A stretch of DNA of 44,631 nucleotides, from positions 1-44,631 of the forward strand of contig JAIEPD010000047.1 in the NCBI GenBank assembly GCA_019749935.1. Reading direction: 5' to 3'. Source of the DNA: Alphaproteobacteria bacterium. GTDB taxonomy: Bacteria; Pseudomonadota; Alphaproteobacteria; Paracaedibacterales; CAIULA01. The notes under the pieces were generated by a model. The model ran no database searches and was not told where the DNA came from. It saw nothing but the letters and a program-made list of their open reading frames with translations. Below, piece after piece: positions 11,221-20,585 of the stretch (its first letter is position 1; each line of letters starts with the position of its first letter). The position numbers and the translations under genes are program-made.

Positions 11221-12030
11221 TTACACAACCGCAATGTCAGGTGCATCGACTGCCTTCATGCCGACAACGTGGTATCCCGCATCTACGTGATGGACTTCGC
11301 CAGTAACTCCGCTGGATAATGGGCTCAAAAGGTATAACCCTGCGCCACCCACATCTTCTAACGTTATATTACGCTTTAACGGGGAATTGTACTGGTTCCA
11401 TTTAAGAATATAACGAAAATCACCAATACCGGATGAAGCTAAGGTCTTTGCAGGCCCTGCTGAAAGAGCATTGACACGGATATTATCGCTGCCCAAATCA
11501 ACAGCAAGGTAACGCACGCTAGCCTCTAAGGCTGCTTTTGCAACGCCCATTACATTGTAATGTGGCATAACGCGTTCGGCGCCATAATAGGTTAACGTCA
11601 AAAGAGACCCGCCTTTCGGCATCAACTTAGAGGCTTCACGGCAAACCTCTGTAAACGAATAACAAGAAATATCCAATGAATTTAAAAAATTAGCCCGTGA
11701 AGTTGCAACATATTTTCCCTTAAGCTCTTCTTTATCAGAGTAAGCGAGTGAATGCAGAACAAAATCAATTGAATCCCAATGGCGGCCGATTTTATGAAAC
11801 GCCTCTGCAACTTGTCCAGGTTGGCTTACATCACATTGAATTAAGTGATTTGGATTAGAATTCAGCTTTGCTGCCAAAGGTTCTATACGTTTTAAAAGAG
11901 AGTCTGTCTGGTAGGTAAAGGCTAACTCAGCACCTTGATCCGCCAATGCTTTACTGATTCCCCACGCCAGAGAATGATCGTTAGCAAGGCCCATAATTAC
12001 GCCTCGTTTACCTTTCATTAAGTTCGTCAT
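11221..12030 (-). CDS. fabI: Enoyl-[acyl-carrier-protein] reductase (NADH)
   Basis: Catalyses the last reduction of each fatty-acid elongation cycle in the cytoplasm. The 269-aa protein is an SDR-fold FabI: cofactor loop MGLANDHSLAWGISKALA near residue 13, CDV and HSLAYSDKEELKG (FabI-type insertion), catalytic Tyr and Lys in YYGAERVMPHYNVMGVAK (Y-x6-K), and NALSAGPAKTLASSGI at the substrate-binding loop. The presence of fabI with fabD in the window indicates a working type II fatty-acid pathway. FabI is the usual target of triclosan-like inhibitors. The gene stands alone, minus strand, with a 127-nt gap to the Cache-channel operon. Confidence 0.95.
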   Translation of the reverse strand: MTNLMKGKRGVIMGLANDHSLAWGISKALADQGAELAFTYQTDSLLKRIEPLAAKLNSNPNHLIQCDVSQPGQVAEAFHKIGRHWDSIDFVLHSLAYSDKEELKGKYVATSRANFLNSLDISCYSFTEVCREASKLMPKGGSLLTLTYYGAERVMPHYNVMGVAKAALEASVRYLAVDLGSDNIRVNALSAGPAKTLASSGIGDFRYILKWNQYNSPLKRNITLEDVGGAGLYLLSPLSSGVTGEVHHVDAGYHVVGMKAVDAPDIAVV

Positions 12031-12157
12031 ATATCCTCATTCAGTCATTAGAGTATTTCACTTTAGCTATAGTAATGACCGATGCGGCAAAAGGATTCAA
12101 GCTCAAATCTGTTAAAATGAGCAAAAATTGAGAGATTAGTCTGTAAGATCTATTCGA

Positions 12158-13354
12158 TCATTTTTTATCCATCTTTTTTGATGTCTTATCTGAAGCCTCA
12201 AATAATTTTTCTAATACTTGCGCAAGAATTCCAATCTCATTGGGTTTTGAGGTGAATTCCTGAAATGTTGCTTTTCCGTCCTTTACTTTATCACGGCAAA
12301 TCATAATTATTTTACGAAGAGGATCAATCAACATTGTGTTATAGGCAAAAACAGCAATAAACGCTACTAAAATTACCTCGATTATATTGATGATAATCTC
12401 ATTAATAAACTTTGCGCGGTATTGAGCGTTTAATTTTTCAAACGTTTTATTAATAATAATAGTTCCAATTTTTGTACCACTAAAGTCAAAAAACGGACCT
12501 AGCGCTAATCCTTGCTCTGCGCCATCTATAATTGGCAATGTTGTATAAAATTCTGTACTTTTATTTAAGTAAGTTGATGTCATCATTGACATTACTTTTT
12601 CTTTATTGGTTGACTCCAAATATCTAAATCCACCGATTGTATTTTTAATTTCGATTTCTTCCTTCGTCAATTTTTTTGTATTTTTATCGTCATTAGGAAT
12701 TTTAGTACAGATTCTATCAAATAGTTTTTTATTAACAAAAATACTAACATCAGCTCCTGTAAGATCCTTTATTTTTTGCAAAATACTTTTAAATGAAAAA
12801 GCAAATTCCAAACTGCCAATATGTTTATTTTCATAAAAAACAGGCACCACACCGCGAATGCCGAGACCAGCACGACCTAATTCAAGCCCTTTTTGTGCGC
12901 TTTTTAATTTATTGGTACTCACAACAGTCTGTCTAAAATCACTTAAGTCTTCACCATAATCTCCTTCTTTATGAAGTTTAAGAAAGGTTGAAGCTGGTGC
13001 TTTGTGAAATTGTATTTCACTTACGTCATACTCTTTATTTTGTTTAAGAAACATTGGCCTTAATTGATTCAATAACCAGGCTCTATTTTCATCATAAAAT
13101 GCTTTATTAATTCCTGGAATTGTTGCAAGCATATCAGCTCTAGACTCAGCTTTACCTGCGATTTTTAAAAAATCAGAAGCTATCTGTTCAGAAATACCTA
13201 TCAGTTCATTTTTCTTAGCAACCACTAGAGCATGCTTATGATCAAAATAAGAAGATACCAACGTAAAGGATAAGGAAATTGCAGCAATAAAAGGAATAAG
13301 AAGAGGTATCTTGAATCTCATCGCTCGCATTCTTAATTTATTCAATACAATCAT
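12158..13354 (-). CDS. dCache_3-type membrane receptor with HAMP, no output domain (copy B)
   Basis: A 398-aa sensor-like protein: N-terminal helix (about residues 13-34), a periplasmic region of about 280 aa, a second helix (about 316-340), then a short HAMP-like cytoplasmic part (DPLRKIIMICRDKVKDGKA...NEIGILAQVLEKL) and a basic tail. The periplasmic region carries the Cache hallmark FLKLHKEGDYGEDLSDFR, followed by ELGRAGLGIRGVVPV and HIGSLEF, as in double-Cache type 3 domains that bind small molecules. No kinase, cyclase, GGDEF or chemotaxis domain follows. It is clearly a paralog of the protein at 14423-15688. It is the last gene of a three-gene minus-strand operon and starts 30 nt after the ion-channel gene, with GAGGAC upstream of ATG 13354. 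Confidence 0.8.
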   Translation of the reverse strand: MIVLNKLRMRAMRFKIPLLIPFIAAISLSFTLVSSYFDHKHALVVAKKNELIGISEQIASDFLKIAGKAESRADMLATIPGINKAFYDENRAWLLNQLRPMFLKQNKEYDVSEIQFHKAPASTFLKLHKEGDYGEDLSDFRQTVVSTNKLKSAQKGLELGRAGLGIRGVVPVFYENKHIGSLEFAFSFKSILQKIKDLTGADVSIFVNKKLFDRICTKIPNDDKNTKKLTKEEIEIKNTIGGFRYLESTNKEKVMSMMTSTYLNKSTEFYTTLPIIDGAEQGLALGPFFDFSGTKIGTIIINKTFEKLNAQYRAKFINEIIINIIEVILVAFIAVFAYNTMLIDPLRKIIMICRDKVKDGKATFQEFTSKPNEIGILAQVLEKLFEASDKTSKKMDKK

Positions 13355-13383
13355 AAATTGTCCTCATTAAAATGATCTATGGG

Positions 13384-14454
13384 TCATTGCTGCATAGCAT
13401 CAATGATAAAACCCGCAAGTAAAAAGAAAACAAATAAAGGAAATGCCCACTGACAATAGCGAACTAATGTTTTAAGTATGCTATTTGAATAAACCGTATG
13501 ACCAATATATTTTTCCAGAATACATACAAAAAATAATATCGTTATTTGAAATATGTAGCCAATCCCAAATACTTTAAGAACCAAACTGCCCACAGCGGAA
13601 CTATCTGGATACTTCAATGTAATTGTAAATTGCAACGTAATAAGCGCCAAAAGTGAGGACAACACAACGCTAATCTTGGCCATAATATTCATATTGCTTA
13701 CCCACAAAAGAATTAAGGGGAAAAGCATGATCATAAAATATGGAAAAAAGATCAGTGGGACATATGTCATTGAAGCGCGTTCAGCTTTGACTAAGAAACG
13801 CAAGTTTTGGTACAAATAACCATTCCACCCTCTGATCGTTTGCATTTTTGCATTAAAATTATGCAAATACCACAAAGGAGTGCTAGCACCGAGTGTAACA
13901 CCAGAACCATACTCCTCTTCTTCTTCATACACTAAACGCATTTCGGAGAGAGTGTTTTTTGTTGATTCAATGTCGAGCATTAAAATTTGATCGTCAAAAG
14001 GAAATGCTTTTGTATCAAGTGGTACTTCGAAAACACCTGATACTGTTGTTATATATTCAACCTTACCATCATTGTAAATAATTAAACCGTGATGTACTGA
14101 GTGTACAGGTTTCTTTAGGTTTTTGATTTTAAGCCCAGGGTTCCAAATGCTTGATAATTTTTGAATAGCTGATTCATCATCTAAAATAATACGGCTAACT
14201 CCTTTTGCTTTTTTATCAAAAACAAGATTTGGATCTCTCCATGTAATTTTCAACTGAATTGTACCGGAAAATCCCCCAATGACATTGCTAATATCATCTA
14301 ATTTTAAAACCAAAAGCTCAACTTTTACCGGTACAGGAAAAATCATTTTTTCTTCACTTTTATCTTCTGCGGAAAAAAGTTCGGTTTTTGTCAATATAAG
14401 ACACATTAACAAAAACAATACTTTAAGGCATGAGGCTTGAAAGAATCGCTGCAT
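13384..14454 (-). CDS. Prokaryotic pentameric ligand-gated ion channel (Cys-loop/pro-loop receptor family)
   Basis: A likely inner-membrane channel subunit that would assemble as a pentamer and open on ligand binding. From ATG 14454 it has 356 aa: a signal peptide (about 1-28), an extracellular beta-sandwich domain with LKITWRDPNLVF and SIWNPGLKIKN, the family's conserved loop VPLDTKAFPFDDQ (FPFDDQ at about 151-156), and four helices at about 229-252, 256-279, 290-315 and 333-352. As in other bacterial members the two loop cysteines are missing. The pore helix reads MAKISVVLSSLLALITL, without the acidic residue that lines the GLIC pore mouth. An alternative TTG start at 14472 adds six residues before the signal peptide. 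The gene overlaps the upstream receptor gene by 32 nt. Confidence 0.88.
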   Translation of the reverse strand: MQRFFQASCLKVLFLLMCLILTKTELFSAEDKSEEKMIFPVPVKVELLVLKLDDISNVIGGFSGTIQLKITWRDPNLVFDKKAKGVSRIILDDESAIQKLSSIWNPGLKIKNLKKPVHSVHHGLIIYNDGKVEYITTVSGVFEVPLDTKAFPFDDQILMLDIESTKNTLSEMRLVYEEEEEYGSGVTLGASTPLWYLHNFNAKMQTIRGWNGYLYQNLRFLVKAERASMTYVPLIFFPYFMIMLFPLILLWVSNMNIMAKISVVLSSLLALITLQFTITLKYPDSSAVGSLVLKVFGIGYIFQITILFFVCILEKYIGHTVYSNSILKTLVRYCQWAFPLFVFFLLAGFIIDAMQQ

Positions 14455-15688
14455 CGCTACTACCACTATCAATATTAGAAGGATTAGAAGAGTTATTATC
14501 TTTTAGAATGTATCTATTAGCTTTATCATCTATAAACTCTGGATATTCTTTTATTAGTATATCTGCAATTTTATCCAGTTCGTTATGATAATGCGCATAA
14601 TCCTTTAAGGATATTTTTTCCCCCAAAGCCAATGCTCTAGATCTTTTAATTAGTTCAGCTAATGGAAACAACAGTAAGCCATTGAAAGCAACAAAAACAG
14701 CACTAGCTATTACAATAATCTGAACAATTGAATTAATAATTTCCCATAATATCTTTTTAGAAAAAGCCAAATTAAGATCTTGAAACGATTTAACAATCGT
14801 GATCTTTCCAATAGTTTTTCCAGCAAAATCAAGCAGCGGAGCAAAAGCAATTCCTTCTTCAGCACCATTGATTATCGGAAATATAATGTTTAGTTCGGAA
14901 TTTTTTTGAAGGTTATCTTTATTAATAACAGAAAGTATTTTTTCTTTATTACTTGAATCTAAGTAATAAAACTCACCAATTGTATTGGCTTTTGTTTCTG
15001 CTGAGTTTTGATTTTTATCTGATTTCACACTCAGCTGAGTACAAGTCTTTTCAAAAAGATTTTTATCAATAAAAACACCTATTTCAGATGACGTTAACTC
15101 TCTGATTTTATTAATTATATTTTTTAACGTAAAAACAATTTCAAGACTGCCAATATGGCCTTTAGTATCTAAGATTGGCACAACACCTCTGATGCCTAAA
15201 CCAGCACGACCAAGCTCCATACCTCTTTGGGGGTTTTTTTCTTTATTTGTTAAAACAACTGTTTTTCGAAAACCACTCAGATCTTCACCATAATCACCAT
15301 CTTTATGAAGTTTAAGAAAAGTTGAAGCTGGAGGTTTATGAAATTGTAACTCGCTCATAAAATATTTTTGTTTTTGATTTAAAAACATTGGCTTTAGCTG
15401 TTCGATCATCGATTTACGATCTTCTTTTCTAAATGCCTCTACTATTTCTGGAATAGTTGCCAACATAACAGATCGTGATTCAGCAAGCATTGCTGTTTGG
15501 GCAATGTCTGATTCTATTTTTTCAACAATATCTGATAACAAAGCACGCTTCGTTTCAAGAAGCGCTTTTTTTTGTGCTGCATATGATAACAAAACACTTC
15601 CTCCAACAGCTAATATAACAAAAAGAATAACCGTTAGAGGCGCTCTTACTCTGAGTTGTGTTTTTTTAAGTTTTTCAAAGATAAACAT
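14423..15688 (-). CDS. dCache_3-type membrane receptor with HAMP, no output domain (copy A)
   Basis: A 421-aa sensor-like protein with the same plan as the gene at 12158-13354: N-terminal helix (about residues 15-36), a double-Cache periplasmic domain with FLKLHKDGDYGEDLSGFR, then ELGRAGLGIRGVVPI and HIGSLEI, a second helix near 325-345 and a HAMP-like segment (FPLAELIKRSRALALGEKI...HNELDKIADIL). It ends in a Ser/Asn-rich tail and no signalling output domain. The two copies align over almost the whole periplasmic part, so they come from a duplication. It is the first gene of the operon, and its 3' end overlaps the channel gene. No clear ribosome-binding site precedes ATG 15688. The ligand is unknown. 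Confidence 0.8.
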   Translation of the reverse strand: MFIFEKLKKTQLRVRAPLTVILFVILAVGGSVLLSYAAQKKALLETKRALLSDIVEKIESDIAQTAMLAESRSVMLATIPEIVEAFRKEDRKSMIEQLKPMFLNQKQKYFMSELQFHKPPASTFLKLHKDGDYGEDLSGFRKTVVLTNKEKNPQRGMELGRAGLGIRGVVPILDTKGHIGSLEIVFTLKNIINKIRELTSSEIGVFIDKNLFEKTCTQLSVKSDKNQNSAETKANTIGEFYYLDSSNKEKILSVINKDNLQKNSELNIIFPIINGAEEGIAFAPLLDFAGKTIGKITIVKSFQDLNLAFSKKILWEIINSIVQIIVIASAVFVAFNGLLLFPLAELIKRSRALALGEKISLKDYAHYHNELDKIADILIKEYPEFIDDKANRYILKDNNSSNPSNIDSGSSDAAILSSLMP

Positions 15689-15761
15689 TGAAAGCTGCGA
15701 TTATTTAACACCCTAATATCATCATGTGATAAAAATGGTTAATAAAATGTGAATCTATTCA

Positions 15762-15803
15762 CATCTTTTTTAACCGCATCTTTTTTAACCGCATCTTTTT
15801 TAG
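15762..15803. repeat. 15-bp tandem repeat, 2.7 copies
   Basis: The unit CATCTTTTTTAACCG is repeated at 15762-15776 and 15777-15791, with a partial third copy that diverges after CATCTTTTTTA. It lies between the receptor operon and the broken HAD gene, upstream of copy A. It could be slippage debris or a repeated binding site. Confidence 0.7.
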
Positions 15804-15815
15804 GGATAAGGAGCC

Positions 15816-16506
15816 TCAATAGCAGCGGTTTTCTAATTGAATGAGTTCTGGCAACTGCAGCATGTCATTAAATATAATATAGACTCCTGCCTCGAAAAAG
15901 CTTTGATCTGAAATCTTTTGACTTTGCGCAGTTCCTATAAAACCCAAAACTTTCATTCCCGCTTCATGAGCAGCTCGTGCTCCTGTAGGGATATCCTCGA
16001 TGACTAAGCATTCAGAAGGCAAAACTCCCATTTTTTCCTCAACAAACAGATAAAGCTCTGGAGAGGATTTAGGCTTACTAACCATATCAGCGCTAAAAAT
16101 ACAATCATCAAAATATTGATCTAAATGGCGGGAATTAAGAAGTTTAAGTAACCTTGGAAAATGACTATTTGAGGCCACGGCTTTTGGTAAATCAATTGCT
16201 TTCAAAGTTTCTGCTATATGAGGAATTATTTTGACTTCTTTTTCTAAAGCCTCTGTGATTTCCTTTTCAATCTCATTAATATCTGTATCACTAATAGAGG
16301 CACCCGATTCTTTTGTGATGGTCTGAAGAGCCTCAACCGTGGTAATTCCCGAGAACCTCTTTATATGCCTCTTCTTCTATAGAAATACCCAGCTTTTTTA
16401 AGGCACTAACTTCTATACGTCCACCGATTTCTTCTGAGTCAAGCAAGACACCATCGCAGTCAAAAATAATAGCTTTTATTGAGGGGAGAGATTTAGAGTT
16501 TTCCAT
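15816..16506 (-). pseudogene. HAD-superfamily phosphatase (beta-phosphoglucomutase-like), frameshifted
   Basis: The gene starts at ATG 16506 after a strong AGGAGG and encodes the motif I segment AIIFDCDGVLLDSEE. The frame then runs into a stop after ...YKEVLGNYHG. Shifting frame by one base near 16356-16357 (one extra G on the coding strand, GAGG for GAG) restores ...YKEFSGITTVEAL and leads into the rest of the protein: KPKSSPELY (motif III region) and VIEDIPTGARAAHEAGM (motif IV). Repaired, it would be about 229 aa, a normal length for a sugar-phosphate phosphatase or mutase. Either the gene is inactive in this genome or the base is a sequencing error. Confidence 0.8.
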
Positions 16507-16712
16507 AACAGACCTCCTGCGTTAAATATCATTTGGTCAACGGACTTTCAGTTAATTTTTATCTTATTTTTTAATTTTTTCAACTCCTAGATTTAACCTT
16601 TACATCTCCATAGTAAAGGAGTATCGGTAACGTGAGTAATAAATCCGTTATCGATTATGGTTGTGTAAGTTCTCTTTGTACAAATAATCTGTATTATTTA
16701 AGGAGATTTACA

Positions 16713-18416: not shown

Positions 18417-20585
18417 TTACTTACTATGTAAGTGATTCACTCCATCCCAACCCTCACCTGGAGATGTCTTTTTATAAGCCTCACATCTTTCAATATAAAT
18501 CTCACATGGAAGATCCTCTGGATAACGAAGCTGCATATCCTTAAAGACAGCAATTGCTTCATCCCAACGTTGCTCAAGGTATAAAGTAAATCCACGCGCA
18601 AACTGTTCAACAAATTTGAGCTGTTCAGCTGTTGGCAACAATAAAGGATCTGTGTTTTGCAATGCTATTAACTCAAAGATCCTAACGCCCTCATTTTTTC
18701 CTTTTACAGCAACCACATCGAGCGGTCTTACCACTGCATAGTCTTGAATCTGTTTATAGGTTGCTTGACTGATAATGACACATGAACCGTAATTTTTGTT
18801 CACACCCTCTAATCTGGCAGCCAAGTTCACTGAATCTCCAATAGCTGTATAGTTTAATCTTTCCGTAGACCCAAGGTTTCCAACAATAACGTCACCTGTA
18901 TGAAGTCCCATCCTTGTAAACAAAACTGGCTTCTTTTCAAAACCCCATTTACGGTTGAGATCAAGAAGACGTCTTTGACAAAGAAGAGCAGCTTTACAAG
19001 CATGCAGCGCGTGATCTTTATCATTTCCAGGTGCCCCCCAAAAGGACATAATCGCGTCACCTATGTATTTATCAACCGTACCACTCTCTTCAATAATTAT
19101 TTGTGTCATTTCATCAAAATATTCAGATAAGTGATTCATCAATTTATCGGCAGGATAAGTTTCAGAAATCGTTGTAAAACCAGCAATATCAGTAAAAAGT
19201 AAGGTAACATTTTTCATTCTCCCCCCTACTTTTACATCAATCCCCTTGTCTATCAATTTTCGCACAAGAGCTTTAGGAACAAATTTACCAAACGAAGATA
19301 AACTATGACGCATTCTAGAAATAGAACTCTGAAGCTTTTGAATTTCCACAATTCCTGATTTTACTTCCAAAACATCGCCGAGGTCAAAAGTTGTAATTCG
19401 ATTCGCTTGATCAGCAAGAGCATTAATAGGTTTTGCAATTCGATGAGCAATCAAAGCCACAACAAAAATTGACAAAAAGAGAATCCCCAAGGAAATTAAC
19501 AAACATTTTTCCTGAGTGGTTTTAACTTTTCCAATAAATACATCCATAGGCGTTATGACAGTAAATATCCAATTCTTGAAGAATGATTGATCAAACTCTT
19601 TATAGGTCGCTATATACTGCTCATGATTGTAATCAAAAATAAAACGATGTTGTTGAGTGGATATAAAGGTCTTATAACCCAAAAAAGAAACCTTATCGCC
19701 TATATCTTCTAAGGTTACTAATTGTGTATCAGAAGCATTGACTACTTTTGCAGTAGTTTTTTCTGTTGGGTGAGCAATCAGTTCGCCTTTTTTATTAATA
19801 ATGATTGCAAGCCCTTTAACAGAATTATTTTTTAGAATTCCTGATAAGCTCATTAAAGGAATATCGGCGCCTATCGCCCCTATATATTTCCCACTCTCAT
19901 TTTGCAAAGGATGTGCGGTTGCAACACCAGGGAGCTTTGACGTGCTAAAAATATAAATGTCAGTCCAAATTTGTGCTTCCATTTGCATAGATTTATTGTA
20001 CCATTCACGTACGCGATGATCGAAAGTGATCTCGAAGTCAGGTAATTTCTCTTGCTCTAATATCTTTCCTTCTTGATTCAGATAATACCAAGTTTCTTCT
20101 TTACGATTTTCACCTCTATCAAGAATTCTAATGGCTATGGTTGCGTTTTTTGGCAGAAGTTTTGTCGTTAAAGATCTGTAAGTGGCCCCTTCTCCTAATA
20201 TCTTAACCTGCATAAAGCGTCCCGTTTCTATACCAATAAACATGCTCTCTAAGTATGGGTACTGTTTAACTGTCCCAATCATGTACTCCACTAATTTTTT
20301 ATTGCTTATATCGACATCTTGTGGACGATTGATCAGGTAAGATCCCAATGCAACTGAATTTTGAACACCTTTAAAATGATTATTTATTGTATCAATCTTA
20401 GTGCCACTCAAATCTTCCATCATTTTGTCAGAAAAATCGATGAGTGTTTCTTTGTTTGCGCTATACATGTAAAACATTATTGAAGCGGCAGTAATAATTT
20501 GAAGAACAAAAAAACTACTTAAAACATCAAATCTGAGCTGTCTTTTTGAAAAATAATCATGGATCGATTTGAAAATGTTAACCAT
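18417..20585 (-). CDS. Membrane adenylate cyclase: dCache sensor, HAMP, class III cyclase
   Basis: A 722-aa receptor cyclase. Order: N-terminal helix (about 22-44), double-Cache periplasmic domain (about 50-340, with WYNKSMQMEAQIWTDIY and GAIGADIPL, typical dCache_1), second helix (about 350-372), HAMP (about 373-425), and class III cyclase (about 450-635). The two metal aspartates are in LLFTDIAGFT and YIGDAIMSFWGAP, the purine-specifying Lys and Thr in VDKYIGD and NYTAIGD, and the transition-state Asn and Arg in VNLAARLE; together they indicate ATP as substrate. A C-terminal tail with FTLYLEQRWDEAIAVF is common in this group. It would convert an external chemical cue to cAMP. It is divergent from the transporter gene at 20746, sharing a 160-nt promoter region. 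Confidence 0.9.
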   Translation of the reverse strand: MVNIFKSIHDYFSKRQLRFDVLSSFFVLQIITAASIMFYMYSANKETLIDFSDKMMEDLSGTKIDTINNHFKGVQNSVALGSYLINRPQDVDISNKKLVEYMIGTVKQYPYLESMFIGIETGRFMQVKILGEGATYRSLTTKLLPKNATIAIRILDRGENRKEETWYYLNQEGKILEQEKLPDFEITFDHRVREWYNKSMQMEAQIWTDIYIFSTSKLPGVATAHPLQNESGKYIGAIGADIPLMSLSGILKNNSVKGLAIIINKKGELIAHPTEKTTAKVVNASDTQLVTLEDIGDKVSFLGYKTFISTQQHRFIFDYNHEQYIATYKEFDQSFFKNWIFTVITPMDVFIGKVKTTQEKCLLISLGILFLSIFVVALIAHRIAKPINALADQANRITTFDLGDVLEVKSGIVEIQKLQSSISRMRHSLSSFGKFVPKALVRKLIDKGIDVKVGGRMKNVTLLFTDIAGFTTISETYPADKLMNHLSEYFDEMTQIIIEESGTVDKYIGDAIMSFWGAPGNDKDHALHACKAALLCQRRLLDLNRKWGFEKKPVLFTRMGLHTGDVIVGNLGSTERLNYTAIGDSVNLAARLEGVNKNYGSCVIISQATYKQIQDYAVVRPLDVVAVKGKNEGVRIFELIALQNTDPLLLPTAEQLKFVEQFARGFTLYLEQRWDEAIAVFKDMQLRYPEDLPCEIYIERCEAYKKTSPGEGWDGVNHLHSK

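Follow-up and report, generated by a model that had tools for sequence, protein, structure and literature searches.

Associations between Cache sensor domains and Cys-loop-type ion channels in prokaryotes were described by Tasneem et al. (2004/5; PMC549065), who reported a predicted operon of a channel gene and a stand-alone Cache gene in Rhodopseudomonas, as well as channels fused to Cache/MCP-N or PBP-I domains, and proposed that Cache protein and channel cooperate in chemoreception. According to Jaiteh et al. (PMC4795631), such associations are known at the genome level only. Our literature search for Cache domains together with pentameric ligand-gated ion channels (pLGICs) returned only Tasneem et al. 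as relevant and no later paper on separate Cache partners, with many subscription journals outside its coverage. Here we analysed a 44,631-nucleotide (nt) stretch of DNA from a lake bacterium (Alphaproteobacteria; contig JAIEPD010000047.1, hereafter the window), in which a minus-strand cluster encodes a channel of this type between two Cache membrane proteins, receptors A and B. The initial annotation of the window had presented the cluster as a candidate for an undescribed system; the general idea, a Cache-channel operon together with fusions, is already found in Tasneem et al., while the clade-wide pairing, the co-occurrence and the two-receptor form reported below appear to be undescribed. 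The cluster is transcribed in the order receptor B, channel, receptor A, and consists of the following genes:

14423..15688, minus strand: receptor B, the first gene of the cluster, a PF14827 dCache_3 protein of 421 amino acids
13384..14454, minus strand: pentameric ligand-gated ion channel (Pro-loop/Cys-loop superfamily), PF02931, 356 amino acids from the ATG
12158..13354, minus strand: receptor A, a second dCache_3 membrane protein, 398 amino acids

The three open reading frames (ORFs) were found at the coordinates given by the initial annotation. The channel ATG at 14454 yields the 32-nt overlap with receptor B that had been reported, and the gap between channel and receptor A measured 29 nt instead of 30 nt. 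All three genes were retained in a congener (genome G001, the Alphaproteobacteria metagenome-assembled genome AlinenLipids_bin-7672; the window genome is G000), with protein identities of 79–90% and dN/dS values of 0.125 for receptor A, 0.043 for the channel and 0.177 for receptor B. Since the three genes are conserved in the congener with dN/dS between 0.04 and 0.18, the arrangement reflects neither chance nor decay, and the earlier reading as an operon held, as a tight cluster with every gene under purifying selection. A scan of genome contigs matched the congener only, and a PLSDB search for a plasmid origin or spread gave no match. Across 11900–16300, promoter-like sites did not exceed those in shuffled sequences and terminator-like sites lay within coding regions; an Rfam scan of the window matched solely a tRNA outside the cluster.

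To place the channel among its homologs, we searched PF02931 in genomes sampled from the order, class and phylum of the window and from the groups around two other carriers, took the flanking DNA of each match, and called neighbours with a profile of the receptors. This survey of Pseudomonadota genomes comprised 48 channel genes including the window. Twenty-five of them, from seven families and at least two classes, had a dCache_3 gene directly upstream in the same orientation, and no dCache_3 neighbour was found at the other 23. The predicted operon of a stand-alone Cache gene and a channel, as in the Rhodopseudomonas case, is therefore present in the window and at 24 further loci. Of the 25 pairs, 24 had a junction that could be located: about 15 showed a 4-nt overlap, nearly all fell between −32 and +3 nt, and one lay at +16 nt. 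A 4-nt overlap is typical of translationally coupled gene pairs. The pairs span 20–30% protein identity and have differing flanking genes. In a tree of 46 channels (25 linked, 21 unlinked), the linked channels formed one clade with branch support of 100/100. Homologous channels elsewhere do adjoin Cache genes (25/48, a single clade), which strongly favours the receptor-channel coupling that the initial annotation had suggested; among the surveyed linked loci, the three-gene order it described recurred only in the congener, and the other linked loci have the two-gene form of an upstream dCache_3 gene and a channel. Since every occurrence of this branch of channels came with the sensor gene, a role of the sensor as a partner of the channel is probable.

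The sensors of the pairs grouped together against MCP- and kinase-type dCache_3 proteins, with support of 87/99 in a smaller set and a modest 85/78 in a larger one. Pairwise distances of channels and sensors were correlated (r = 0.97 for 16 pairs; r = 0.88 for 25 pairs, with 0 of 5000 permutations as high). This correlation demonstrates stable pairing and not contact, because it is expected of any co-inherited pair. Two traits were present in 25/25 linked channels compared to 0/21 unlinked ones: loop C contains an invariant Gly-Trp, and the M2-M3 linker is longer by one residue. In this superfamily, both regions are part of the gating path and link the outer domain with the pore. The traits may have arisen as adaptations to the partner or may simply mark the ancestry of the clade.

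Co-occurrence was assessed in a sample of 297 genomes of family f180, of which 11, from seven genera, carried 12 channels. In a PF14827 search, a short dCache_3 protein lacking an output domain was found in all 11 channel genomes and in none of the 286 channel-free genomes, the other full-length matches being long MCP-type ORFs or ORFs cut by contig ends. The naive probability of this pattern is about 10^-19, which is overstated as related genomes are not independent. Three apparent stand-alone dCache_3 genes in channel-free genomes (G820, G863 and G1029) were rejected as MCP-type; two of them end at contig edges and one has a masked stretch. In 20 genomes examined singly, each short dCache_3 gene adjoined a channel. 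The channel is missing from most relatives of the window, and no dCache_3 was found in five channel-free relatives. Two genomes, G850 (L043, L048) and G1121 (L103, L113), contained two Cache-channel pairs each; those of G850 belong to different subclades, so that several versions of the module occur in one cell. At L025:7054-7982 (genome G463), the channel gene appeared as two ORFs, a ligand-binding part and a membrane part, with a 4-nt overlap, possibly through a sequencing error, a frameshift or a true split.

The assignment of the window channel to the pLGICs was borne out by several lines of evidence. It matched PF02931 with 61.7 bits (cut-off 26), and its sequence matches in the PDB were GluCl and GLIC, covering both the ligand-binding and the membrane domains over 300 residues at about 4e-14. 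An AlphaFold2 model (mean predicted local distance difference test score (pLDDT) 86.5) retrieved chains of GLIC, the glycine receptor and the GABA-A receptor in Foldseek with TM-scores of about 0.8, and the protein has a ligand-binding domain and four membrane helices with the fold of the superfamily. Alignment revealed the Pro-loop FPFD motif (F151-P152-F153-D154), the pre-M1 Arg226, the M1 Pro238 and the 9' Leu in M2. We propose that the channel forms a ligand-gated homopentamer. At the inner mouth of the pore, the window genus has A(-1')-K(0') and locus L031 has L-S, and position -1' is acidic in 19 of the 25 linked channels. The A-[RK] pattern was tied to anion selectivity by Tasneem et al. 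(PMC549065); in the window channel it comes without the Pro of animal anion channels. The M2 residues point to a possible change of selectivity in the window, whose channel may differ from its relatives in the ions it passes.

Receptors A and B scored 103.1 and 105.4 bits against PF14827 (cut-off 25.7), and in both a double Cache domain lies between two membrane helices. Receptor B consists of transmembrane helix 1 (TM1), a periplasmic dCache_3 domain, TM2 and a HAMP-like tail of 78 residues, with no output domain; the tail of receptor A after TM2 has 52 residues. The AlphaFold2 model of receptor B (pLDDT 80.4) showed long transmembrane helices and Cache-like modules, and in Foldseek it matched the dCache ligand-binding domains of Tlp3, DctB and PctA with modest TM-scores. 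Both receptors are predicted to bind a small ligand. The initial annotation had called them dCache-HAMP receptors: the dCache_3 part stands, but neither protein matched Pfam HAMP, and the HAMP part comes down to a resemblance seen by eye, in that the tails open with a HAMP-like P-L and show a HAMP-like second-helix pattern. A relative, L103, reached 17.4 bits against Pfam HAMP, under the cut-off.

Receptors A and B are 42–43% identical to each other. Their duplication followed the split from genome G003 and took place within the window lineage (tree support 100/99); G003 has a single, upstream Cache gene, and among the surveyed linked loci a second, downstream dCache_3 gene occurs only in the window genus (G000 and G001). 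Receptor B occupies the place that the upstream Cache gene has at the other linked loci. With both receptor copies conserved, it may be that two differently specific sensors, or a heterodimer of A and B, act on the one channel.

No MCP domain and no kinase output (HisKA/HATPase) was found by Pfam in receptors A and B, which end 52–78 residues past TM2. Across the pairs, the sensors end 9–78 residues (about 40–50 in most relatives) past an invariant Pro-Leu that closes TM2. As only 9 residues follow TM2 in the L045 sensor, it has no cytoplasmic effector domain in cis. Of the 883 dCache_3 proteins described by Upadhyay et al. (PMC4822843), the majority have a kinase, MCP or GGDEF/EAL output, and an ion channel accompanies none of them. 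Nor was an effector gene seen to adjoin the sensor-channel pair across the loci, whereas the channel always adjoins. Three genomes (G000, G001, G003) lacked CheW, and two of them (G000, G001) also lacked flagellin, at genome completeness of 91–96%. Without CheW and flagellin in the window genome, chemotaxis is an improbable output here; we rejected it for the window lineage, and the term chemosensory used in the initial annotation does not fit if taken to mean chemotaxis. The simplest output to propose would be ion flux and membrane potential.

Other genes were observed beside channels or near the cluster. At four loci of family f278 (L105, L108, L109 and L110; e.g., L110:3426-7283), an ELIC-like channel gene is preceded by one for a pyridoxal-phosphate-dependent decarboxylase (PF00282, 180 bits) and followed by one for a membrane protein that contains a PDC sensor domain (PF22673), with gene gaps of about −4 to 25 nt; the gene of ELIC adjoins a decarboxylase gene as well (PMC3119659). 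The Cache-like sensor gene of these loci may be a second, independent sensor-channel pairing. An unlinked channel (L022:5614-8013, genome G429) is followed 27 nt downstream by a gene for a phosphonate-type periplasmic binding protein (PF12974, 221 bits), an arrangement that corresponds to the PBP-type pairing of Tasneem et al. (PMC549065). The window encodes another Cache receptor near the cluster, a dCache_1-HAMP-guanylate/adenylate cyclase (18417-20585, minus strand; PF02743, PF00672, PF00211), which in G001 is not one of the cluster's immediate neighbours. A HAD-type hydrolase gene (15816-16507, minus strand) is apparently frameshifted: the ORF at 15816-16205 covers only the C-terminal half, and the apparent start lies near 16507 in another frame.

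We consider it probable that the dedicated Cache sensor is an accessory subunit that modulates the Cys-loop-type channel. The dCache_3 protein would be a membrane-anchored subunit dedicated to the homopentameric channel; its periplasmic double Cache domain would bind a small solute, and the sensor would contact the periplasmic domain of the channel, its membrane helices or both directly, shifting the open probability of the channel and so turning a chemical signal into ion flux. In the window genus, the duplicated sensor would provide two sensors per channel or an A-B heterodimer. This proposal starts from the protein identities, the strict gene pairing, the channel clade matched by a sensor group, the co-occurrence, the absence of a sensor output domain and the purifying selection, all directly observed; from these we infer the physical contact, the direction of signalling, the ligand, the ion selectivity and the physiological output (not motility in this lineage). 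The existence of fused Cache-channel proteins (PMC549065) also supports the accessory-subunit reading, and a coupling of receptor and channel, predicted from gene and protein comparisons, is well supported by the comparative evidence. Several points weigh against this reading. Gene pairing and correlated distances also follow from the co-inheritance of a tightly linked pair, the loop C and M2-M3 linker traits could reflect phylogeny and not function, and the structure predictions are of single chains. No solved structure similar in sequence to the dCache_3 domain was found, and we know of no ligand for any dCache_3 domain. Moreover, because unlinked channels without a Cache partner exist, such a partner is not required for gating across the superfamily. 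A bolder version, in which an obligate Cache gating subunit defines a widespread, unrecognised two-protein receptor class, represented in the window by a doubled sensor (perhaps an A-B heterodimer), a pore perhaps switched from cations to anions (A-K) and ionic signalling independent of chemotaxis, is possible but doubtful as a whole.

Under the model of Tasneem et al. (PMC549065), the Cache protein would instead concentrate a periplasmic ligand or hand it over, and the channel would gate by binding it at its own subunit interface. The complete ligand-binding fold retained by the channel, the published proposal itself and the soluble binding proteins beside other channels, such as the PF12974 protein encoded 27 nt downstream at L022, agree with this model; we nevertheless regard it as unlikely, since a dCache_3 domain that is anchored by a membrane helix on either side and followed by a HAMP-like exit has the architecture of a signal transmitter and not of a soluble carrier, and the linked clade has an altered loop C and M2-M3 linker. 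The Cache protein might also serve the channel in assembly, trafficking or clustering and sense no ligand. Auxiliary proteins with such roles for channels occur in animals, and the translational overlap suggests co-translational assembly. The ligand-binding Cache fold of the periplasmic domain and the invariant residues of its distal module, retained in both receptors, argue against this role, and a pure chaperone would need no second, diverged copy, which makes it quite unlikely. Ranking behind it, and improbable, is shared regulation only, with the Cache protein signalling through its tail to a cytoplasmic partner and the channel merely co-expressed. The HAMP resemblance of the tails and the Cache-HAMP cyclase at 18417-20585 would suit it; a tail of 9 residues in L045 and about 40–50 in most relatives, neighbourhoods that hold a channel but no adjoining effector gene, and a window genome lacking CheW do not. 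A chance neighbourhood of unrelated genes, for which only the general possibility and the absence of the channel from most relatives speak, has a negligible probability and was refuted by the survey, as the pairing is kept over seven families, two classes, 20–30% identity and different flanks, with complete co-occurrence in 297 genomes.

The cellular role of the bacterial relatives of neurotransmitter receptors is a long-standing question, with GLIC and ELIC best known as models for structural work. A clade always paired with its own separate sensor, and with cultivable relatives, offers a defined partner and a testable lead on function. If the accessory-subunit reading is true, a Cys-loop-type receptor would here have its chemical sensor and its pore in separate proteins, comparable to the Cache-bearing auxiliary subunits of animal calcium channels.

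Compared with known systems, the sensors share the periplasmic PF14827 domain with dCache_3 chemoreceptors and histidine kinases, but they lack an MCP, kinase or GGDEF output, end soon past TM2 and pair with a channel gene. The animal alpha2-delta subunit of voltage-gated calcium channels likewise carries Cache domains in a separate auxiliary channel subunit, a parallel drawn in PMC549065; the channel family is unrelated and the Cache type is another, so that the likeness is one of analogy only. Fused-sensor channels (Cache/MCP-N, PBP-I, DeCLIC) resemble the cluster in that a prokaryotic channel has an accessory domain in the periplasm, although that domain is part of the same polypeptide, whereas the window encodes a separate membrane protein; the N-terminal domain of DeCLIC has jelly-roll-type folds and is not Cache (PMC12664993). 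The channels GLIC (Gloeobacter violaceus) and ELIC (Dickeya/Erwinia chrysanthemi) share with the window channel the fold, the four membrane helices and the Pro-loop in place of a Cys-loop, at about 19–21% identity for GLIC, yet they are known to work without a Cache partner, and the M2-M3 linker of unlinked channels of their type is canonical, unlike that of the linked clade. Also among the closest systems is the Rhodopseudomonas palustris pair (PMC549065), with its stand-alone Cache gene beside a Cys-loop-type channel and a proposed role in joint sensing; it was reported from one genome, with conservation untested there, and has one Cache gene where the window has two. Clade-wide conservation, co-occurrence, absent sensor outputs, channel signatures and the two-receptor form are added here beyond Tasneem et al. 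These results represent a strong extension of a published prediction and not a wholly undescribed system.

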